DNA from: Cupriavidus respiraculi
Lineage (GTDB): Bacteria; Pseudomonadota; Gammaproteobacteria; Burkholderiales; Burkholderiaceae
Assembly: GCF_914271545.1 (NCBI RefSeq)
Contig: NZ_CAJZAH010000001.1
Span: forward strand, 744,001 to 808,000
Reading direction: 5' to 3'
DNA: 64,000 nucleotides
The position numbers were made by a program, and so were the translations under genes. Under the pieces are notes generated by a model. That model was not told the origin of the DNA, searched no databases, and saw only the letters and a list, made by a program, of their open reading frames with translations. Shown here in pieces: positions 5,138 to 16,584 of the stretch. Within the stretch, counting starts at the first letter, position 1, and each line of letters begins with the position of its first letter.

Positions 5138-5575
5138 CTACGGCAGGCGTACCGCCGCGATCGTGCCGTCGGCGTCGTGATCCACCACCGCGATCTTCGC
5201 CTGCTGCAGCGCTGCCAGGCGCGGCACGGGCAGCGCGAAACTGCGCGCCAGTTCGTCGTTGCGCAGCGCGGGAATCGCCTTGCGGCGGTCCATGCCCGAG
5301 AAGCGGTACTGGTTGTAGATGGCCCAGGTCAGCAGCACCACGCCGTTGAAGACGCCAACGACCACATAGAGCGTGAGTGTGCTCATGGTGGGGAGCAGCG
5401 CCGACCACACCGGCACGCCGGGGCCCGCTTCGGCCTCCCGCAGGATGGCGAGGATGCCGGTCACGCACAGCCAGCCGAAGCCGATCCACGCAATGGCGGT
5501 CAGCAGCGCATCGAACAGCCAGCCAAGGCGCGAACGGGGGGTGCGGACGATCAGGTCTTCGGAGTGCGGGTTCAT
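5138..5575 (-). CDS. pgaD: PgaD, small membrane subunit of the PNAG synthase
   Basis: This 145-residue inner-membrane protein has two predicted helices, at about residues 20-45 ([20 protein letters not shown]) and 60-85 ([22 protein letters not shown]), followed by a cytoplasmic tail. PgaD partners PgaC to make poly-beta-1,6-N-acetylglucosamine, and in known systems the pair is the target of cyclic di-GMP. The RFSGMDRRK segment just after the second helix matches the conserved part of the family. It starts at ATG 5575, overlapping the pgaC stop by four bases (ATGA). It is the last gene of the operon, and the C-terminus is longer than in some homologues. Confidence 0.88.
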
Positions 5576-6909
5576 GAGGATTTCACCGAGTGGATGCCAC
5601 GATCCGGGCTGGTCCAGCGGGCACGCCGGCGCCGGGTGTTGAGCATGACTTTGGGAAAGGCCAGCAGCGTGGTGAGCATGCCCACCATCCAGTAGGCCAG
5701 CGGATACCAGATGATCCAGTACAGCGAACGCCCGAGCCGGGGCTCGTAGCGGCGATCGATCGCGATGCTGACGGCGAACTGCAGCACGCACACCGCCGCC
5801 AGGACCATGCCGGTGAAGCCGGGCGGCATCAGCTTCTCGATGCGGATATTGGCGGGCAGCTCGACGAAATGCCCCAGCGCCCACAGGATGATCGACATGG
5901 CGAACGCGAAGGCCCAGCCCGCGGACAGGCAGTACTCGATCACCAGCGGCCACAACCGGCGATGCCGCCAGCTCCAGATCGACCGCACGTTCTTGAGGAA
6001 GACCTCGGCACCGCCCTGGGCCCAGCGCAGGCGCTGCTTCCACAGGCCGCGCACCGTCTCCGGCATCAGGATCCAGCACAGGCCGCGCGGCTCGTAGAAG
6101 ATCGACCAGTGGTCGCGCTGCAGCTTCCAGCTGATGTCGATGTCCTCGGTGATCATGTCCAGGCTCCAGTAGCCCACGCGGTCCAGCGCGCGGCGGCGGA
6201 AGGCCGCCACCACGCCGGAGACCGTGAACACCTGGCCGTAGACGCGCTGGGTACGCTTGATCAGGCCGATGATCGAGGAGAACTCGCCCACCTGGATGCG
6301 GCCCACCAGCGTGGAGCGCGTGCGGATGCGCGGGTTGCCGGTCACCGCTCCCACTCGGGGGTTGTCCACCATGGGTGCGACCAGATACGCGGCGGCGTCC
6401 GGGTCGAGCACCGCGTCGCCGTCGATGCAGACCAGGTACTCGCCGCGCGCGGCCAGCGTGCCCATGCGCAGCGCCATGGCCTTGCCCTGGTTGTGCGACA
6501 GATGGACCACGCGCAGCCGCTCGTTGTGCGCCGCCATCGCATCGAGCACGGCGCCCGTGCCGTCGCTCGAGCCATCGTTGATGGCGATCACCTCGAAGTT
6601 GGGGTAGCGCTGCGCCAGCGCGGCGCGTAGCGTTTCCTCGCCGTTGCCCTCTTCGTTGTAGCAGGGCACCAGGATGGAGATGAAGGGCTGGCCCGTGACC
6701 TGCGGCGGCTCGCGCCGCTCGCCCCAGGACCAGTTGCCCTCCCAGTGCCACCAGAAGTAGATGCCGCCGGCCATCCACAGGCCGGACATGAACAGCGGAT
6801 AGAAGAAGACGAAGGCGAGCAGCAGGTCTCCCGTGGCGAGCGCGGCCAGGCCGAACGGCAGGCCGAGCGCGATGCAGAGGATGACGAGGGCAAAGAGGCG
6901 GTCGATCAT
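5572..6909 (-). CDS. pgaC: PgaC, PNAG synthase glycosyltransferase (GT2)
   Basis: This 445-residue inner-membrane GT2 enzyme polymerises N-acetylglucosamine from UDP-GlcNAc with beta-1,6 linkages. Two N-terminal helices (residues 5-25 and 30-53) precede the catalytic domain (about 75-330) with NDGSSDGT (D112), CIDGDAV (D163, D165), the base TED (D256) and QRLRW (292-296). C-terminal membrane helices follow from about residue 315. The ATG at 6909 overlaps the pgaB stop by four bases, which fixes the start even though the frame is open to 7266. Spacing and order match canonical pgaABCD. Confidence 0.95.
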
Positions 6910-8924
6910 GGCGCGGGGTACCAGGCGTTGGAGAGCGCCGGCCGTATCGCGTCGAGCCGGGGCTGGTTGCTGTGGAAGTCGTCCGGGTAGTAGCCGAAAT
7001 TCGCGGCGCCGCGCCGTTGCAGGCGCTGCATCCAGCCGGCCAGCACCGCGCTGTCCACGGGCGGCGCGTCGGGCGTGCGCCAGTCGCGGCTCTGCAGCTC
7101 GAACACGGTGCGGTTCAGCGCACCGGGACGGCGGGCGATGGTGTCGACGAGCGCATCGAGCCAGGCGTGTTCCTGACCCGCCGGTACCTGCTCCATGTAC
7201 GGCATGGCCATCGGCGCGGTCCAGTCGTAGGCGGCCAGGAAGTCGTCCAGGTTCTGTGCGAACCATGCCTCGCTCTCGGGCTGCAGGATGGGTGCGGCAA
7301 AGATGTTGCGCGCCGTCTTGATGGCCGGCCCGCGGATGGCGCGAACCTTGCCCGTCAGCTCCTGCGTAAAGCTCACCAGCGCGCGGCTCTTCATGCGCGT
7401 CCAGCGCTGCATCAGCTCGGGATCGGCGCGCAGCGCGGCGATGGACGTGGGCAGTCCGGCGTCGCGGTACGCGGCGAGCGCGGGGGCGCTGGCGTCCTCG
7501 AAGTCGCTCAGCACCGCGTCGTCGTGGAACAGGATGCCGTCGAACACCGCGTGGCGCGACAGGTCTTCATACAGCTCCCCGATGCGCACGCGGGCCTGCG
7601 GGTCGAACGGCGACAGGCGGCGGTACTGCTTGCCGTCCACGGCAGTCTTGCCGGTCTGCGGATCCCAGCGTTCGACCCGCGCGATGGCCGGATCGAGGTC
7701 CACCGCCAGCACCGGCATCCACGCATAGACCTTCACGTTGGCGCGATTGCGCAGCTGCCACGCCACGCGGTTGAACAGGTCTGCGCGCACCGGCAGCAGG
7801 CGGTTGGGGAAGTACACCGACTTCACCAGTCCGCTACCGTCCGGGTCGGCGAACGCCTGCAGGAACACCGTGTCGATGTTCAGGTCGGCGATGCGCTGCA
7901 CCAGCTTGTCGAGGTTGCGGTCGATCTGGGTGGGATCTGCATCGTAGACATAGTCCAGGTCCACATGCGCCACCCGCATCGGCGTGCGCTCCTCCATGTT
8001 CGCCACCGACTGCGCGAAGCCGCGCAGGCTGGGATCGTCGCCGAGCAGCAGGCGCGGTGCGGACATCAGGCGTTCCACCGTCGCCAGCCCGTCCTGCAGC
8101 GTGAAGGCCATGCGGTAGCCGTTCTCCCCGATGATGCGCAGCGCGGTGCCGCCTTCGGCGCCATAGGGCCAGATCCACACGCGCACGGGCTTGCCGGTGG
8201 CACGCTGCACCTTCTGCGTGATGCGCTCCACGTCGGCGCGCACGCGTCGTTCGTAGGCGGCGTCGGTCTCGTAGGTGCCGGTCGCCGGATCGAAGGCGCG
8301 TACCGCCGCGGCAGGCTGCGTGTTGCCCTGCGGGTTGGCGCGCGCGCCGTAGTGCAGGTCGTCGGTGTGCGCGCCGATTTCCACGAGCCCGGAGGCGGCG
8401 ATCTCGCGCACCTGGCGCCAGGTCAGCATGCGCTCGCGCTCGGTCGGCGTGCCGCCGAAGTCGACGGGCGCGTCATCCGGCGTATCCATCCACTTGCCCA
8501 CGGGGGCCAGCACCGCTGGCCAGCGGTATGCCTTGAGCAGCGGCATCACGCGGGTGTAGAAGCTGCGATAGCCGTCGTCGAACGTGAGCAGCACGGCCTT
8601 GGCGGGCAGCGCCTGGCCGCCTTGCCGCGCGGCCAGGATCTGGTCCACCGAGACCGCCTGGTAGCCGTTCTCCCGCAGCCAGGCCAGTTGCCCGATCAGG
8701 TGGTCGGTGCGCACGCTCAGGTAGGCCTGGTCCGGGTCCTTGTCCTCGACGTCGTGATACGCGAGCACCACGACATGGTTGGCCGGCCAGGGGCGCTCGG
8801 CCTGGGCCACCGGCCGCTCGGCCGGGGGCGTGAAGACCGGAATGTCCTTGGCGCAGGCGCCCAGCAGCACGGCGGTGACAAGCAGAAGAATGAAGCGATA
8901 GGCACGCATCAGTGTGGCGTTCAT
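6906..8924 (-). CDS. pgaB: PgaB, poly-GlcNAc N-deacetylase lipoprotein
   Basis: This 672-residue outer-membrane lipoprotein partly deacetylates PNAG during export. The lipobox LLGAC places the lipidated cysteine at residue 24. The N-terminal carbohydrate esterase 4 domain (about 50-300) carries [17 protein letters not shown], the catalytic pair D116-D117 in [11 protein letters not shown] and the metal-ligand region HTDDLHYG. The C-terminal glycoside-hydrolase-like half begins at [13 protein letters not shown], about residue 350, and contains [12 protein letters not shown]. The ATG at 8924 is chosen, and a second in-frame ATG at 8909 is possible. The pgaA stop lies 11 bases upstream, so translation is probably coupled. 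Confidence 0.95.
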
Positions 8925-8935
8925 GGCGTGCGTCC

Positions 8936-11419
8936 TCAGAAGCGGTAGGTCAGGTCGAACACGATGCGCAGTTCGCGCTCGCGCTGGCCGTCGTAAGGGC
9001 GGCTGGTGCCGGTGATGGTCGCGCCGATGTCGAGCACGTCGTTGGTGCGAAAGCGCTGGCCGTAGCCGACCAGCAGGATCGCGCCCGTGCCGTAGCCCTG
9101 CTGGCTGTACGAGCCGGCGCCGGCGAGGAACTGCTGCTCCCACACCGTCTCGTAGCGGCGGTACAGCGTGTGCGTGAGCCGCGCCGACGGCAGCACCGTC
9201 AGGTCGGAACGCGGATTGAAGTACGGCGCGTCCTCGCGCGAATTGCGCGAGGCCCACAGGTCGACCAGCAGGTCGGCCTTCAGGTGCGGCGCGGTATAGA
9301 GTCGCTCGGCACCGGACGCGCCGGCCTCCATGCGGTCGTTGCCGTCGCTGAAGCGCGACGGCGACACCGTAAACAGCCACTCGCTGCGTTCGCTGCGGCG
9401 CCAGCGCGCGTAGGTGCGCACCGTGTCCGCGTAGATGCCCTGCTTGAGCGCGCGCAGCGGCGTGCCGGTCGAGCGCAGCGCGGCCGAGGCGCCGACCTGC
9501 CAGCGGTCGCTCAGGTCATAGTCCAGCGCCAGGCGTCCGCCGGCCTGGCCGCCCTGCCCATACAGGTGGGTGGAGACTTCGCCTTCCACCGTGAGATCGC
9601 GCACGCGCCATTGCACGCCGGCGCGGGCCCACTTGTAGTCGACGGTGCCTTCCTCGAAGCGGCCGGTGGCGTAGCCAATGCCGCCGAAGGCGCGCCAGTC
9701 GTAATTGATCGGCGGCGTGTAGAGCACCGACTCGATGCCGAAGTTGCCGTTGCCCACCACCGCGCTGTCGTTGGCCAATCCACGATAGCCCTCGATGCGC
9801 AGTTCCGACTTGTTGTGGACCTGCCATTCGCGGTCCAGCCGCCGGACGGCGAGGTTCTCGGGATAGCGCGCCACGGTGTCGTCGCGCAGCAGCTCGGCCT
9901 GGCGCCACTCCTGCAGATCGAGCGCGGCATGGCCCTGCTGCACCTCCACCTGCATGCTGCGCGGGGCCAGCGTCTCCGCGAGCTTCAGTTCGCTTTCGGC
10001 GGCGCGCGGCCAGCCGCGCGCGCGGTAGACGTCGGCCAGCGCCACGCGCAGGCCCGAATGGCCGGGCGCGCGGCGCACGATGTCTTCCACGCGGCGTTGC
10101 GCGTCGACGGTGTCGTCGGCCTGCAGGCGCGCCTGCATCGCGACCTGCTCGGCCTGCAGCCACAGATCGTTGGGCTGGCGCGTGGGCTGGCCACGCACCC
10201 AGCGCCAGCGGGGCTGTTCGGCGCTCGCCTGCTGCACCACCTGCCCGGCCGGATCGAACGCCTCGGCTTCGGCATGGGAGTAGTAGAGACCGGTTTGCGC
10301 CGCCAGCCGCGCCTCGGCGTCGCCGCCCTGCGGATACGCCTCCTGGACCTGCCGGTACAGAGACTCGGCACGCTCCGGATGACGAAGATAGAGATAGGCG
10401 GCGGCCACGTCGGACAGCGCATACGCTGGCACCTTGATGCCTTCGGCACGCAGGCCCTCGTAGGCGTTCACCACGTCCTGCATGCGCACACGGGCATGCA
10501 GCGCCGCGAGGCGGTCGATGCGCGCGCGGCGCAGCTGCGCGTCGCCCCGGGCCCCGAGCGCGGACAGGTCCGCCATCACTTTGTCGTAGCGCGCCAGCGC
10601 GCGGTCGGCGATGGCGAAGCGTTCGGCTTCGCTGCGCGTGGGCATGTCCGCCAGGCGTGTCAGCTCCGCGGCCTCGTCGACCTGCAGTTCCAGGATGGCA
10701 AGCGGGTCAAGCAGACCGGGATGCTCGCTGGCCACGCGCAGCGCGGCCTCGGGCAGACCGGCCTGGCGCAGCGCGCGCACGTATTCCCGCACGACGTCGG
10801 CGCGCTTGGGCGCCAGCGTATGGGCCTGGTCCGCTTCGTACAGCGCCTCGTAAGGCTGCGCGGCGCGCGTGTAGGCGTAGGCCAGCGCCAGCCGCGCGTC
10901 GGCATCGGCCGGATGGCGCGCGACCAGCGCCTGCGCGGCGCTCACCGCCTCGGCCGTGCGGCCGCTATCGGCCAGCACCAGCGCTTCGCCCACGGCGAAG
11001 TCCATCCGCTGCGCAAAGCGCTGCCGTCCCTCGCGATAGTGCGCCAGCGCCTCGTCCCAGCGCCGCTCGTCGCGCAAGGCGCGGGCCACGGCGCCCAGCA
11101 CCTCGGGCGGCAGTGCCGTGCCCGTGCCGAGCTGGCGGTACGTCTCCAGAACCTCGGCCGGACGGCCGGCCCAGCCAGCGATGACGATGCGGTCATGGGC
11201 GGCGCGCCGGTCCGTGGGCTGGCTCGCCATGCGCTCGCGCAGCAGCACCAGCGCCGGTTCGTAGTCGCCGGCGCGGGCACGCTGGATCAGCGTGTCGTAC
11301 ATCGGATCTGCCTGCGCGGGCAGCGCCAGGCAGGACATCGCGGCGGCCAGCCCGACGGCAAGCCGGAGCGGCGCATGCCGGCGCAATGCCGGCCGCCGGC
11401 GCGTATTCAGTGACTCCAT
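8936..11419 (-). CDS. pgaA: PgaA, outer-membrane PNAG export porin with TPR superhelix
   Basis: This 827-residue protein has a signal peptide cleaved after AQA at about residue 38. Roughly 480 residues of helical TPR repeats follow, with repeated A-x3-Y-x-A patterns such as WDEALAHYREG and LALAYAYTRAAQPYEALYEA. The C-terminal beta-barrel ends in LRIVFDLTYRF, whose terminal phenylalanine is the outer-membrane insertion signature. PgaA exports the polymer, and its TPR part holds PgaB and deacetylated product. It is the first gene of the operon and is preceded by about 780 noncoding bases. The length matches known PgaA proteins. Confidence 0.94.
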   Translation of the reverse strand: MESLNTRRRPALRRHAPLRLAVGLAAAMSCLALPAQADPMYDTLIQRARAGDYEPALVLLRERMASQPTDRRAAHDRIVIAGWAGRPAEVLETYRQLGTGTALPPEVLGAVARALRDERRWDEALAHYREGRQRFAQRMDFAVGEALVLADSGRTAEAVSAAQALVARHPADADARLALAYAYTRAAQPYEALYEADQAHTLAPKRADVVREYVRALRQAGLPEAALRVASEHPGLLDPLAILELQVDEAAELTRLADMPTRSEAERFAIADRALARYDKVMADLSALGARGDAQLRRARIDRLAALHARVRMQDVVNAYEGLRAEGIKVPAYALSDVAAAYLYLRHPERAESLYRQVQEAYPQGGDAEARLAAQTGLYYSHAEAEAFDPAGQVVQQASAEQPRWRWVRGQPTRQPNDLWLQAEQVAMQARLQADDTVDAQRRVEDIVRRAPGHSGLRVALADVYRARGWPRAAESELKLAETLAPRSMQVEVQQGHAALDLQEWRQAELLRDDTVARYPENLAVRRLDREWQVHNKSELRIEGYRGLANDSAVVGNGNFGIESVLYTPPINYDWRAFGGIGYATGRFEEGTVDYKWARAGVQWRVRDLTVEGEVSTHLYGQGGQAGGRLALDYDLSDRWQVGASAALRSTGTPLRALKQGIYADTVRTYARWRRSERSEWLFTVSPSRFSDGNDRMEAGASGAERLYTAPHLKADLLVDLWASRNSREDAPYFNPRSDLTVLPSARLTHTLYRRYETVWEQQFLAGAGSYSQQGYGTGAILLVGYGQRFRTNDVLDIGATITGTSRPYDGQRERELRIVFDLTYRF

Positions 11420-12200: not shown

Positions 12201-12947
12201 ATGTTGCAATCTCCACGGCGCACAGGTCTGAGCGGCCCGACGCTGGTCCGGCTGCTGGCGCGCCTGCAGGACGCCGACGCCCCCGAGGCCGGACAGTCGC
12301 TCGCGCTCCAGCTCAGCCAGTGGCTGGACTGGACCGCCGCGATCGCCCTGTCCTCGGCCCTGAAGGCCCAGCCCGCACCCGCGAAGTCCCGCGCACCGGC
12401 GCCCGAAAGCGCCGAGGAGCAGGACTGCGCGCGCGTTCGCGCGGCGCTCGCGGCCGCGGTCGCCGATGCCGCGACGGGCAGCGCGCCAACGCGTCGCCGG
12501 GGGTCGGGGCGGCCGGTCATCCCGGACCCCGTCGAAGCGTCCGCGGCCTTCGCGCCCTATCGCCGCCGCTACGCTACCGTGCAGCAGACGATGGAATCCA
12601 CCATCGAGAGCTTGCGCGGCCGCCTGCGCGCGACGCTCGCCGCGCGCGGCGCGGACAGGACCAAGCTGGCGATGGTCGATGCCGTGATGGAACGCGTGCT
12701 GGGCCCGCGCGAACAGAACCTGCTGGCCGCCGTGCCGACGCTGCTCGAAGCGCGCTTCGACCATCTTCGCCAAAGCGCGGAGACACCGCGCGCCGAGGCC
12801 GACGCGGCCGCCGCGTCGACCGCGCCATCCGCGCCCGGCGCCTGGGTCGGCGTGTTCCGCAACGAGATGCAGAGCGTATTACTGGCCGAGTTGGATATCC
12901 GCTTCCAGCCGGTCGAAGGCTTGCTTGCCGCCCTGCGCGGCGGCTAA
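12201..12947 (+). CDS. DUF3348 protein, first gene of a ZorAB-like motor cluster
   Basis: This 248-residue protein of unknown function is recognisable as DUF3348. The N-terminus GLSGPTLVRLLARL and the phrase QLSQWLDWTAAIAL are typical, as is the central segment AAFAPYRRRYATVQQTMESTIESLRGRLR. The final third has REQNLLAAVPTLLEARF and LDIRFQPVEGLLAALR. There is no signal peptide or membrane helix, so it is probably cytosolic and mostly helical. Low-complexity alanine linkers lie at about 55-75 and 200-215. The next gene starts 10 bases after its stop, pointing to one transcript with the membrane protein. Its job is unknown. A cytosolic partner of the motor tail is one possibility. Confidence 0.85.
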   Translation: MLQSPRRTGLSGPTLVRLLARLQDADAPEAGQSLALQLSQWLDWTAAIALSSALKAQPAPAKSRAPAPESAEEQDCARVRAALAAAVADAATGSAPTRRRGSGRPVIPDPVEASAAFAPYRRRYATVQQTMESTIESLRGRLRATLAARGADRTKLAMVDAVMERVLGPREQNLLAAVPTLLEARFDHLRQSAETPRAEADAAAASTAPSAPGAWVGVFRNEMQSVLLAELDIRFQPVEGLLAALRGG

Positions 12948-12957
12948 CCCGTACATC

Positions 12958-15312
12958 ATGACCAGATACCTACTCCCTATCGCCGCTTTCGTGGCCGGCC
13001 TGATCGTGGTTGGCTGGATCGGCATCGGCTACGCGGGCTCCAACGCCCTGGGGCTGGCCGCGACGCTGCTGATCGGCGCGTTCTACGTGGCCGGTGCCTG
13101 CGAGCTGTACCGCTACCGGCGCGCGACCGACTCGCTGTCGGAGGCCGTGGCCGACCTCGCGCAGCCCCCGGCCACGCTGGCCCCCTGGCTCGAGCGCATC
13201 CACCCGAGCCTGCGCAATGCCGTGCGGCTGCGCATCGAGGGCGAGCGCGTCGCCCTGCCCGGCCCGGCGCTGACGCCGCACCTGGTCGGGCTGCTGGTGC
13301 TGCTCGGCATGCTGGGCACCTTCCTCGGCATGGTGGCGACGCTGCGCGGCACGGGCCTCGCGCTCGAAAGCGTGACGGACCTGCAGGCCATCCGCGCGTC
13401 GCTGGCGGCGCCGGTCAAGGGCCTGGGCTTCGCCTTCGGCACCTCGGTCGCCGGCGTGGCGACCTCCGCGATGCTGGGGCTGCTGTCGGCGCTGTCGCGG
13501 CGCGAGGCCATCCACACCGCGCAGCGGCTGGACGCGCGCATCGCGACGACGTTGCGCGTCCACTCGCGCACGCACCAGCGCGAGGAAGCGTTCCGGCTGC
13601 TGCAGCGCCAGACCGAAGCCATGCCCGCGCTGGTCGATCGGCTCCAGGCCATGATGAGCGCCCTGGAGCAGCAGAGCCAGGCGCTGAACGAACGGCTGGC
13701 CGCGAGCCAGGACGCTTTCCACAGCCGTACCGAAGCGGCCTACCAGGGGCTGGCCGCGTCCGTGGGCCAATCGCTGAAGGACAGCGTGGCCGACGGCGCG
13801 CGCGCCGCGGGCGCCGCGATCCAGCCGGCCGTGGAAGCCACCATGGCGGGCCTGGCGCGCGATACCACGGCATGGCGCGAGACCGTTGCGCAGGCGGTGC
13901 AGCAGCAGCTGGACCAGCTGTCTGCCCGCTTCGACACCACCACCGCCACCGTCGCCCAGACCTGGAGCCAGGCACTGGCGGAACACCAGCGCACCAGCGC
14001 AGCCATGACGCGCGACCTGGGCGCGTCGCTCGGGGAATTCACCGCCACGCTGGAGCAGCGCTCGGCGGGGCTGCTCGATGGCGTGGCCGCCCGCATCGAC
14101 GCGGCGGCGGCCAATACGGCCGAGGCCTTCGGCACGGCGCTGTCCCACCACGAGCGCACGGGCAACCGGCTGGCCGAGGACAACCAGCGTGCGCTGACGG
14201 CCGCCGCGGCGGCCTTCGAGCAGCAGGCGGCCACGCTGGTGCAGGCCATGACGCGCTCGCATGCGGACCTGCAGGACGCGCTGGCCGCGCGCGACGCGCA
14301 GCGCCTGGCGGTCTGGAGCGACAGCTTCGGCGCCCTCGGCGCGACGCTGCGCGAGCAGTGGACCGACGCCAGCGCCCGGGCGGCGGCTCGTCAGCAGGAG
14401 ACCTGCGACGCGCTGGCGCGCACCGCCCGCGATATCTCCGCCCAGACGCAGGCCCACGCCAGCAGCACGATCGCGGAGATCGACCGCCTCGTGCAGGCCG
14501 CGGCGCAAGCCCCCGAGGCTGCGCTGGCGCTGCAGGCCGAGCTGGCCCAGCGCGACGAAACACGTCTGGCCCACTGGAGCGACAACCTTGCCACCATGGT
14601 CGCCGCGCTGCGCGCCGAATGGGAGCAGACCAGCGCGCAGACGGCCAGCCGCCAGCAGGAAATCTGCGAGACGCTGGCGCGGATCGGCAGCGACATCGCG
14701 GCGCGCACGCAGGAACACGCGGGCAACACCATTGCGGAGGTGGCCCGCCTGGTCCAGTCCGCGGCGGAGGCACCGAAGGCCGCGGCGGAAGTCATCGCAG
14801 AACTGCGCGAAAAGCTCACCGAAGGCATGGCCCGCGACAACGCCATGCTGGAGGAGCGCAGCCGCATGCTGGAGACACTGGGCACGCTGCTCGATGCCGT
14901 CAACCACGCGTCGACCGAGCAGCGCACCGCCGTGGATACGCTGGTAACGACCACGGCCGATGTGCTGGACCGCGTCGGCACGCGCTTCACCGACAAGGTG
15001 GAGGACGAGACCGGCAAGCTCACGGACATCGCCGCGCAGGTCACCGGCAGCGCCGTCGAGGTCGCGAGCCTGGGCGAGGCGTTCGGCGCGGCCGTGCAGC
15101 TGTTCGCCGAGTCGAACGGCAAGCTGGGCGAACAACTGGCGCGCATCGAGGCGGCGCTGGACAAGTCCATGGCGCGCAGCGACGAGCAGCTCGCGTACTA
15201 CGTCGCGCAGGCCCGTGAGGTCGTCGACCTCAGCATGCTGTCGCAGAAGCAGATCCTCGAAGACCTGCGGCGCCTGCCGGGCCAGCCGTCCCCGGCGGCC
15301 GAGGCGGCATGA
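12958..15312 (+). CDS. DUF802 protein: MotA/ExbB/ZorA-like membrane core with long coiled tail
   Basis: This 784-residue protein has four predicted membrane helices, at about 4-24, 29-49, 108-128 and 155-177. The third and fourth hold LLVLLGMLGTFLGMVATL and LGFAFGTSVAGVATSAMLGLL, the pattern of the MotA/TolQ/ExbB proton-channel superfamily. From about residue 195 to the end it is almost entirely alanine/glutamine-rich predicted coiled coil, including two 87-residue DUF802 repeats. A long intracellular tail on a MotA-like core is the design of ZorA from Zorya anti-phage systems. The ATG at 12958 is preferred over an upstream TTG at 12925. Its stop overlaps the OmpA-type gene by four bases. The family name is secure. 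The motor role is inference. Confidence 0.82.
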   Translation: MTRYLLPIAAFVAGLIVVGWIGIGYAGSNALGLAATLLIGAFYVAGACELYRYRRATDSLSEAVADLAQPPATLAPWLERIHPSLRNAVRLRIEGERVALPGPALTPHLVGLLVLLGMLGTFLGMVATLRGTGLALESVTDLQAIRASLAAPVKGLGFAFGTSVAGVATSAMLGLLSALSRREAIHTAQRLDARIATTLRVHSRTHQREEAFRLLQRQTEAMPALVDRLQAMMSALEQQSQALNERLAASQDAFHSRTEAAYQGLAASVGQSLKDSVADGARAAGAAIQPAVEATMAGLARDTTAWRETVAQAVQQQLDQLSARFDTTTATVAQTWSQALAEHQRTSAAMTRDLGASLGEFTATLEQRSAGLLDGVAARIDAAAANTAEAFGTALSHHERTGNRLAEDNQRALTAAAAAFEQQAATLVQAMTRSHADLQDALAARDAQRLAVWSDSFGALGATLREQWTDASARAAARQQETCDALARTARDISAQTQAHASSTIAEIDRLVQAAAQAPEAALALQAELAQRDETRLAHWSDNLATMVAALRAEWEQTSAQTASRQQEICETLARIGSDIAARTQEHAGNTIAEVARLVQSAAEAPKAAAEVIAELREKLTEGMARDNAMLEERSRMLETLGTLLDAVNHASTEQRTAVDTLVTTTADVLDRVGTRFTDKVEDETGKLTDIAAQVTGSAVEVASLGEAFGAAVQLFAESNGKLGEQLARIEAALDKSMARSDEQLAYYVAQAREVVDLSMLSQKQILEDLRRLPGQPSPAAEAA
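14269..14790 (+). repeat. Two tandem 87-residue DUF802 repeats inside the tail
   Basis: Residues 438-524 and 525-611 of the membrane protein align without gaps. Shared landmarks in each unit are RD-x2-RLA-x-WSD, a TLR/ALR-x2-W segment, RQQE-x-C-x-LAR, DI-x-A-x-TQ and STIAE/NTIAE-x-x-RLVQ-x-A. At the DNA level the units begin at 14269 and 14530. The units have diverged too far for recent duplication. Repeats of this kind fit a modular rod whose length can change by unit gain or loss. Confidence 0.8.
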
Positions 15313-15956
15313 GGGAGGATATCGACGCCGGCGTGGAACCGGCGGTGCCCGCCTGGGCGGTCTTCGGCGACCTGATGTCGGTCCTGCTCGGCGCCTTCGT
15401 GCTGATCCTGCTCGGCGTCGTCGCGGTCCAGATGGAGCTCTCCGCCAAACTGGAGGACGAGGTCAGGCAGCGGCAGCAGGAAATGCAGCGGCGCGAGACG
15501 CTGGAGAAAGCGCTGGCCGGGCCGCTGGCCGCCGGCCGCGTGACGCTCGTCAACGGCCGCATCGGCATCAACGGCAGCGTGCTGTTCGACCAGGGCTCGG
15601 ACCAGTTGCAGCCGCAGGGCCAGGAAGTCCTGAAGAGCCTTGCCGGTCCGCTCGCCGCGTACCTGCGCACGCGCGACGATATGCTGATGGTCAGCGGCTT
15701 TACCGACGACCGGCGCGTGCGCGGCAGCAATCGCGAGTTCGCCGACAACTGGGAGCTGTCGGCCCAGCGTGCGCTGACCGTGACCCGGGCGCTGATCGAG
15801 GCGGGCGTTCCGCGCTCGTCGGTCTTCGCGGCGGCGTTCGGCTCCACGCAGCCCGTCAGTCCCAACAGCGACGCCGAGGGCCGGGCGAAGAACCGGCGGG
15901 TCGAGATCGCGCCTATCCCCCGCGTGTCGGCCGGCGGCACGAAGGCCAATGGCTGA
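15309..15956 (+). CDS. OmpA/MotB/ZorB-like peptidoglycan-binding stator protein
   Basis: This 215-residue protein has a short cytoplasmic N-terminus and one membrane helix (about 15-40) holding WAVFGDLMSVLLGAFVLIL. Aspartate D21 at the start of this helix corresponds to the proton-carrying aspartate of MotB and ZorB. A charged linker (about 42-70) leads to an OmpA-like peptidoglycan-binding domain (about 85-205) with GSVLFDQGSDQL, VSGFTDD, NWELSAQRA and NRRVEI. It starts at ATG 15309, overlapping the preceding stop (ATGA), and itself overlaps the next gene by eight bases. As partner of the four-helix protein upstream it would complete a MotAB-type unit anchored to the cell wall. Confidence 0.87.
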   Translation: MREDIDAGVEPAVPAWAVFGDLMSVLLGAFVLILLGVVAVQMELSAKLEDEVRQRQQEMQRRETLEKALAGPLAAGRVTLVNGRIGINGSVLFDQGSDQLQPQGQEVLKSLAGPLAAYLRTRDDMLMVSGFTDDRRVRGSNREFADNWELSAQRALTVTRALIEAGVPRSSVFAAAFGSTQPVSPNSDAEGRAKNRRVEIAPIPRVSAGGTKANG

Positions 15957-16584
15957 GGAACAGGCACGCGACGCCCGCGCGCTGCTGGACGCCTGGCGCG
16001 ACAGCGGCGCGGACCGGCTCGATCCGGTGCGCTTCGGCACCATGCAGGCACTGGCCCGCCGCGCCGAAGGCTACGACGGCGCCGTCCGGCGCGTGCTCGA
16101 AGACCGGCTCGCCGCGCTGGCCGACGCCTATCGCACTACGGTGGCGCGCGCGGCCGGGACGCAGGCCGCAGCGGATGCCGAAGCGAGCGCGCCCGGATCG
16201 GCCGCCCTGGCCGATCTCGTCGCGCGCATGCAGGGCAAGCCGCATGGCGGCGAACCCGATGGCCTGGCGAGGCTCACCGACTACTTCCGCGACACCTGGA
16301 TCCAGGTGCGGGCCCGCCGCGAACTGCGGCACTCGGTCGAGCGCGTACCGGAGAACGCGGGCCCGCTGAACTCCAGCCACCTCGTGCAGCGCGCGCTGTC
16401 GCTGATGGGCGAGGTGTCGCCCGGCTACCTGCAGCAGTTCCTGACCTACGTGGACGCGCTATCGTCGCTGGAACGCCTGCAAGGCACGACCAGCGCGCCC
16501 GGCAAGGAGCCTTCCCAGGGCAGTGGCGCAAAAAAGGCCGCCCGCACCCGGCGGCCGAAGGACGGCGCGCGCGCCGGGACGTAG
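15949..16584 (+). CDS. DUF2894 protein, last gene of the motor-like cluster
   Basis: This 211-residue protein of unknown function matches the DUF2894 pattern. It has an N-terminal helix RDARALLDAWRDSGADRLDPVRF, then ALARRAEGYDGAVRRVLEDRL, a middle segment LADLVARM, and the C-terminal core LTDYFRDTWIQVRARRELRHSVERVPENAGPLNSSHLV followed by SPGYLQQFLTYVDALSSLE. The last 35 residues are lysine/arginine-rich and probably disordered. There is no signal peptide or membrane helix, so it is probably cytosolic. It overlaps the OmpA-type gene by eight bases, indicating coupled translation. A basic tail could contact nucleic acid or membrane, but this is speculation. Confidence 0.82.
   Translation: MAEEQARDARALLDAWRDSGADRLDPVRFGTMQALARRAEGYDGAVRRVLEDRLAALADAYRTTVARAAGTQAAADAEASAPGSAALADLVARMQGKPHGGEPDGLARLTDYFRDTWIQVRARRELRHSVERVPENAGPLNSSHLVQRALSLMGEVSPGYLQQFLTYVDALSSLERLQGTTSAPGKEPSQGSGAKKAARTRRPKDGARAGT

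Follow-up and report, generated by a model that had tools for sequence, protein, structure and literature searches.

The four genes between positions 12201 and 16584 of the window (the whole 64,000-nucleotide stretch of Cupriavidus respiraculi DNA that was analysed) form an operon that almost certainly belongs to Zorya type III. It is best explained, with good probability, as an anti-phage operon in which an ion-driven ZorA3/ZorB3 motor would act together with helical adaptor or effector partners. Two features that go beyond the known system are worth keeping: the long tail of ZorA3, whose length has changed many times in evolution by steps that keep the helical twist in phase, and the high single-copy presence of the operon in one bacterial family. 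Neither the tail elasticity nor this presence was found in the open-licence literature reached, among the matches listed.

Zorya type III was defined by Payne et al. in 2021, and the accessible part of that paper counts 6,401 such clusters (PMC8565338). The sequence-only reading had described the window cluster as uncharacterised, and DUF3348 and DUF2894 as possible new subunits. Both descriptions have been overtaken, since the four-gene set had already received its name and, according to the same accessible part, an operon from Stenotrophomonas nitritireducens reduced the plaques of at least one phage in E. coli, while PADLOC-DB and that paper list both proteins as Zorya III subunits. A new motor system with unknown partners is ruled out, as all four proteins are named in PADLOC-DB and the set is described there (PMC8565338, part accessible). 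The defence evidence, as far as the accessible text goes, comes from plasmid expression in E. coli of an operon of another genus; by analogy with it, the window copy may also have anti-phage activity.

Genes and Layout of the Operon

All four genes lie on the forward strand. The genes for DUF3348 (ZorG3 in PADLOC-DB; 12201..12947, 248 amino acids, Pfam DUF3348 8.8e-88) and DUF2894 (ZorF3 in PADLOC-DB; 15949..16584, 211 amino acids, Pfam DUF2894 1.4e-50), whose products are both predicted to be all-helical, flank zorAB, as in Zorya type III. Between them, zorA3 (12958..15312) encodes from an ATG a MotA/ExbB/TolQ-type motor subunit of 784 amino acids with a long cytoplasmic tail, matched by Pfam DUF802 in two stretches (6.2e-26); an alternative, longer frame starts from a TTG at 12925. 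The next gene, zorB3 (15309..15956), encodes a MotB-like protein of 215 amino acids with an OmpA peptidoglycan-binding domain at residues 92-196 (7.7e-20); the pair of features expected of a Zorya ZorB, a membrane aspartate (Asp21) and a peptidoglycan-binding domain, is present. In operon order the intergenic gaps are +10, -4 and -8 nt; the open reading frames and Pfam domains confirm the four tightly spaced genes proposed earlier. The PADLOC-DB models match at 5.7e-88 (ZorG3), E=0 with 1306.6 bits (ZorA3), 5.9e-112 (ZorB3) and 9.6e-68 (ZorF3).

The complete four-gene order was found in 75 of 80 relatives, the remaining five loci (L037, L050, L055, L089 and L097) lying at contig ends, and this conservation is far beyond chance. 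With script-picked starts, the gap between DUF3348 and ZorA is 10 nt in 67 of the 75, and ZorA and ZorB overlap by 4 nt in 68 of them. Scans for tRNA and Rfam families gave no match. It is important to note that GC-rich Zorya III operons have long open frames on both strands, which is a trap for automatic annotation: at L061, L070 and L101 the gene picker took an antisense or other frame over zorB. The subunit letters are a further source of confusion, because the PADLOC-DB models PDLC00652-00658 use ZorG for DUF3348 and ZorF for DUF2894, and the text of PMC8565338 and PMC11890865, in its accessible parts, has them reversed. Genes for a pga (PNAG)-type polysaccharide export system, including a PgaA barrel, a deacetylase with a GHL13 domain and a family 2 glycosyltransferase, adjoin the operon on the reverse strand (5572-11419).

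The Motor Subunits

Four membrane helices are predicted in ZorA3 from a reading of its sequence and from family homology. The two conserved channel motifs noticed earlier in the DUF802 protein, GMLGTFLGMVATL and LGFAFGTSVAGV, are indeed present (residues 111-175; 13288..13482, forward strand), and we take them to be MotA/ExbB-like. The NCBIfam ZorA_2 model scores 2.4e-8, below its cut-off, the Pfam MotA/ExbB model has no match to ZorA3 at E<=1, and a single-sequence search of the PDB with ZorA3 gave no match. A profile of 24 ZorA3 N-termini retrieved one solved chain alone at E<=0.01, 8vvn_C (E=0.0025, residues 110-199). Together with the PADLOC matches of ZorA3 and ZorB3 and the weak ZorA_2 match, this result upholds the kinship to ZorAB proposed by the sequence-only reading. 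The chain has 696 residues and the molecule name MotA/TolQ/ExbB proton channel protein; judging from this name and from its length, it is probably the ZorA of Shewanella, whose rod model spans residues 237-696 (PMC11890865).

In ZorB3, the candidate ion-carrying residue Asp21 (codon 15369..15371, forward strand) is found where the earlier reading had placed it and occurs without exception in the 149 distinct ZorB rows; the wall-domain residues F144, D146, N147 and R154 are each equally invariant. Conservation along ZorA3 is uneven. Among 35 proteins of base length, column means are 0.90-0.91 at residues 101-200, 0.68-0.73 at residues 301-500, 0.83-0.86 at residues 501-700 and 0.74-0.79 in the other regions, the channel region and the distal tail being thus conserved above the middle of the tail. 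Since the distal tail is conserved nearly to the level of the channel, it may serve as a binding site for a partner. Over its last 60 residues ZorA is on average acidic (-2.8).

An Elastic Tail

The tail was compared in 152 distinct full-length ZorA3 proteins drawn from 168 sources (80 + 80 genome loci, 7 class-wide loci and the window), after one source without ZorA, 10 cut sequences and 5 duplicates were dropped. They range from 631 to 1229 residues. A tail of fixed length that would serve as a ruler is not supported. A base form of 690-705 residues is shared by 35 proteins from Burkholderiaceae, Variovorax, Stenotrophomonas, Dyella and Rhodanobacter. A strong tandem repeat occupies the tail in 107 of the 152 proteins (score >=170, the maximum in 40 shuffled tails being 60; this threshold and the use of the top offset were fixed after the pattern had first been noticed). 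The window protein has one 87-residue unit more than the 698-amino-acid base form; its tandem pair (14269..14814, forward strand) consists of approximately two such units, from 14269 and from 14530, and the extra unit shares 54% amino acid and 68% nucleotide identity with its neighbour. In L132 and L161 neighbouring units are up to 99-100% identical, because of which some of the tail growth is recent or homogenised.

The tandem units come in 12 lengths (22, 29, 33, 51, 62, 69, 80, 87, 98, 113, 131 and 149 residues), each of them a sum of 7s and 11s. At 3.632 residues per turn, none of these lengths departs by more than 0.12 turn from a whole number of turns (R=0.960). When 20,000 sets of 12 random lengths were each fitted with their own best period in the range 3.3-4.0, R reached 0.887 at most and equalled the observed value in no set. 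Base-length tails have a hydrophobic period of 3.65-3.67 when long stretches are taken and of 3.56-3.68 in windows of 90 residues; when the period was fixed from hydrophobicity, 22, 1, 0, 673 and 361 of 20,000 random sets reached the fit for five stretches, so that this support for the phase depends on the stretch chosen. Measured against one 698-residue protein, most insertions of at least 15 residues fall at base positions ~300-520, while two others lie near 600 and another near 246. Deletions of 29, 40 and 55 residues, likewise near whole turns, occur in two shorter ZorA3 proteins.

The shaft length of ZorA3 has changed many times by in-phase steps. With tails binned by 7 residues into 30 classes, the rpoB tree and the Zor tree each require 42 changes of length class, the minimum being 29. 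Within species no variation was seen in a tiny sample of two C. metallidurans records (1031 residues), which may represent one lineage, and three P. caribensis records (811 residues). The helical phase lends indirect support to a continuous helical rod and not to a pentamer as such, because in-phase duplication would be expected of any long coiled coil.

A wider reading can be put forward tentatively, in which the Burkholderiaceae have Zorya III as a resident motor, passed on mostly by inheritance, and the ZorA tail is an elastic drive shaft, free in length but constrained in phase, channel and distal tail. If true, the tail would convey twist or register to partners at the distal end instead of measuring distance, and DUF3348 and DUF2894 would dock there. 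Natural tail-length variants allow length to be separated from register and from tip, which offers a testable handle on the role of the long ZorA tail.

The Partners DUF3348 and DUF2894

AlphaFold2 models of both partners consist entirely of helices, with mean pLDDT 79 and pTM 0.71 for DUF3348 and mean pLDDT 78 and pTM 0.42 for DUF2894, in which the C-terminal end has low confidence. Foldseek found no solved structure at E<=0.001 with either model, and VIA-align gave middling Z scores (best 8.3 and 8.1, respectively) for helical arrangements that are possibly merely common and from which no function was read. In profile searches of the PDB, the best match of DUF3348 was a myosin fusion at 0.044, and DUF2894 had no match at 0.1. 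A relationship of DUF2894 to DnaG_DnaB_bind was not accepted, the match of 0.0057 being below cut-off. As neither fold nor profile searches recognised an enzymatic fold or motif in DUF3348 or DUF2894, the operon appears to have no evident nuclease or helicase.

DUF2894 ends in a basic, low-confidence tail (last 30 residues; 16492..16581, forward strand), with a net charge of +6 in the window protein. This end carries +2 or more in all 151 distinct proteins (mean +5.0) and +4 or more in 132 of them; other 30-residue windows average -0.07, and 3.3% reach +4. Four C-terminal K/R positions are listed as nearly invariant. The two partners also travel together, the identical 8 of 281 class-wide genomes carrying both. 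In the control genome of Corynebacterium glutamicum the DUF2894 model matched above cut-off and the DUF3348 model gave no match, which might be a stray relative or chance.

Distribution and Inheritance

Within the genus, 51 of 60 species have DUF3348, as do 47 of 54 when the good genomes alone are counted; some of the nine congeners without it have incomplete genomes. The family sample has it in 101 of its 150 species and in 11 of its 24 genera. It is rare elsewhere: 8 of 281 genomes of the class sample have it, the window genome being the sole member of its own family among the matches listed, and 17 of 299 genomes of the phylum sample, one of them below cut-off. The gene is single in nearly all genomes, including the window genome; G042, G072 and G105 apparently hold one copy in two pieces, and G107 has a second match below cut-off. 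Two defence markers were looked for as controls in the 150 genomes of the family sample: EH_Signature, the marker of Zorya I, occurs in 12 (9 of 24 genera) and PglZ, the marker of BREX, in 3, two of them above cut-off. Most of the 20 listed out of the 49 family genomes without DUF3348 measure 0.2-3.8 Mb, and G001, G035, G063 and G074 measure 5.4-6.4 Mb. The sequence-only reading had named a conserved core-genome distribution joined to a known non-motor role as evidence against its interpretation; the first half holds in part, given the wide presence in the family, and we know of no non-motor role for the Zorya III operon.

No match to DUF3348 was found in 50,697 phage records and none was confirmed in viral contigs. 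A ZorA query matched 27 of 72,556 plasmid records, and the 25 matches listed are replicons of 0.37-3.5 Mb. With this outcome, mobile-element cargo was rejected as the main mode of spread. Among 39 few-contig genomes, chosen by hand from the genomes of this kind, 31 have the operon and rpoB on different contigs (3 of the remaining 8 have a single contig), and the operon is therefore usually placed on a second large replicon.

Zor protein distances, calculated with the middle of the ZorA tail left out, agree with rpoB distances over 77 genomes (Mantel r 0.668, 0/2000 permutations). Within the window's genus r is 0.773 (38 genomes, 0/1000 permutations), and in other genera with at least four genomes it is 0.964, 0.768, 0.68, 0.989 and 0.964, and -0.342 in a genus of four genomes; for mean distances between genera the correlation is 0.49. 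On the Zor tree 14 genus changes are required, versus 10 on the rpoB tree; the two trees have 22 supported splits in common, and 16 of 43 supported Zor splits clash with a supported rpoB split. The correlation and the conflicts together indicate that the operon is inherited mostly by vertical descent, the exceptions being transfers or poorly resolved branches. Neighbourhood conservation, raised in the sequence-only reading, applies to the operon itself, whose order is kept, and not to its flanks, which by eye vary between genera and between groups within Paraburkholderia. Also by eye, all 8 Achromobacter loci have downstream neighbours in common, and of the 4 informative Rhodanobacter loci 3 agree on both flanks. 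DUF3348 is also found on a contig that was binned as Acidobacteriaceae and whose upstream neighbour clusters match those of Caballeronia mineralivorans (L050, L056); this contig probably comes from Burkholderiaceae and was mis-binned. Around the window operon, a PADLOC scan of 20 of the 52 other script-picked ORFs (10 at 1.0-25.3 kb and 10 at 38.3-51.7 kb) gave two weak matches (2.6e-6 and 6.6e-6), which concern a response regulator and a metallo-beta-lactamase-fold protein and are taken as spurious.

Possible Mechanism and Alternatives

For types I and II, published work describes a 5:2 motor with a rod, in which peptidoglycan binding, ion flow and the tail are needed; in type II, ZorAB recruits ZorE as an effector. 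By analogy, ZorA3 (probably five copies) and ZorB3 (two) would build an ion-driven motor in the inner membrane with the same dependences, and its defensive role would carry over to the window copy. A phage that disturbs the envelope may cause the ZorB domains to grip peptidoglycan, as in the type I model, where phage entry makes ZorB grip the wall (PMC12904381, accessible part). Ion flow past Asp21 would then turn ZorA, the long helical tail would carry the motion into the cytoplasm, and the conserved distal tail might engage DUF3348 and DUF2894, non-enzymatic helical proteins that would stand in place of ZorC, ZorD and ZorE as adaptor or effector. The basic end of DUF2894 is a candidate nucleic-acid contact. 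The observed starting points are gene content, homology, conserved residues, the in-phase helical tail, the conserved distal tail and the helical folds; beyond a ZorAB motor with helical partners, we infer the wall grip on phage entry, the rotation of the tail, the action of DUF3348 and DUF2894 at its far end and all contacts proposed for them.

The empty single-sequence search of the PDB with ZorA3, the pTM of 0.42 for DUF2894 and the source of the published defence, a plasmid-borne operon of another genus in E. coli, count against this anti-phage motor. The commonness of the operon and the weakness of the defence matches around it are also counted against it, as they would fit a housekeeping envelope motor, near-core in the Burkholderiaceae and serving envelope stress, wall remodelling or energy transduction, whose protection of E. 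coli against phage would be a by-product of its expression. Such a motor agrees with a presence in 101 of 150 family species against 12 and 3 for the two defence markers, with the single copy in nearly all matches, with the host-tree agreement, with the weak, probably spurious matches of the 20 window ORFs, and with the lack of any match in phage records or confirmed one in viral contigs. It is nonetheless unlikely, considering that 11 of 24 family genera have DUF3348, that 9 of 60 congeners are without it (some incomplete), that it is rare elsewhere (8/281), that neighbours vary between genera and within Paraburkholderia, that the Zor tree has 14 genus changes against 10 and conflicts in 16 of 43 supported splits, and that a homologous operon reduces plaquing (PMC8565338, accessible part). 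The common single-copy presence makes laboratory strains of Cupriavidus a natural host for asking whether Zorya III is only defence; Cupriavidus necator H16 is reported to carry a Zorya system, whose type the accessible part does not name (PMC12645576).

Two further alternatives keep the defensive role and differ in what the partners do. DUF3348 and DUF2894 might only gate ZorAB, infection opening the channel and leaving a depolarised cell with the phage DNA untouched. The lack of a recognised enzymatic fold in both agrees with such an abortive ion leak, as does the proposal, in the accessible part of PMC8565338, that the two DUF proteins regulate ZorAB. We regard it as improbable, given that type II uses ZorE as an effector recruited by ZorAB, that the tail is needed in types I and II, and that the conserved distal tail points to a site for a partner. 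It is more doubtful still that the basic end of DUF2894 holds phage DNA at the tip of the ZorA rod, where the motor would trap or reel it with no cutting: the strong positive charge of the last 30 residues (mean +5.0, minimum +2, n=151, versus -0.07 elsewhere) and the four nearly invariant K/R positions speak in its favour, but disordered ends of basic charge are widespread and also attach to membranes or to acidic proteins, the acidic last 60 residues of ZorA (-2.8) may be what this end binds instead, and no DNA-binding fold was recognised in DUF2894.

Comparison with Related Motors

Of the known systems, the window operon is closest to Zorya type III, all its proteins matching the PADLOC models of this type in one tight operon; it differs in coming from Cupriavidus and in the extra 87-residue unit of its ZorA3 tail. 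With MotAB and ExbBD-TolQR it shares the channel motifs, the membrane aspartate of ZorB and a wall domain of OmpA/MotB type, whereas the long, often repeated ZorA3 tail, the two extra partners and the lack of a Pfam MotA/ExbB match set it apart. Zorya type II is approached through the ZorA2 profile, which matches ZorA3 weakly (2.4e-8, below cut-off), but no ZorE model matched the four proteins of the operon; neither ZorD nor ZorE matched these or the 20 of 52 other window ORFs scanned.

Zorya type I likewise has a MotA-like ZorA with a long tail and a MotB-like ZorB, and differs in having ZorC (EH_Signature) beside zorAB. A tail tandem was found in a single one of the 9 ZorA1-like proteins that could be read, compared with 107 of 152 type III proteins, the comparison covering the loci where the script found the motif (9 of 13 tried). 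Its unit of 138 residues is also in phase (138/3.632 = 38.0, a single case), and rods of this kind may in general grow by steps that preserve phase. The window genome itself holds a Zorya type I locus (L240; C10:81519-86408) with a ZorA-like protein of 663 amino acids and a ZorB-like protein of 252 amino acids, and with no DUF3348 gene, the sole one being in the type III operon. The ZorC gene of this locus (C10:85915-87063) is the genome's only EH_Signature and the window lies on contig C1, in agreement with the earlier statement that no ZorC stands beside the type III operon.
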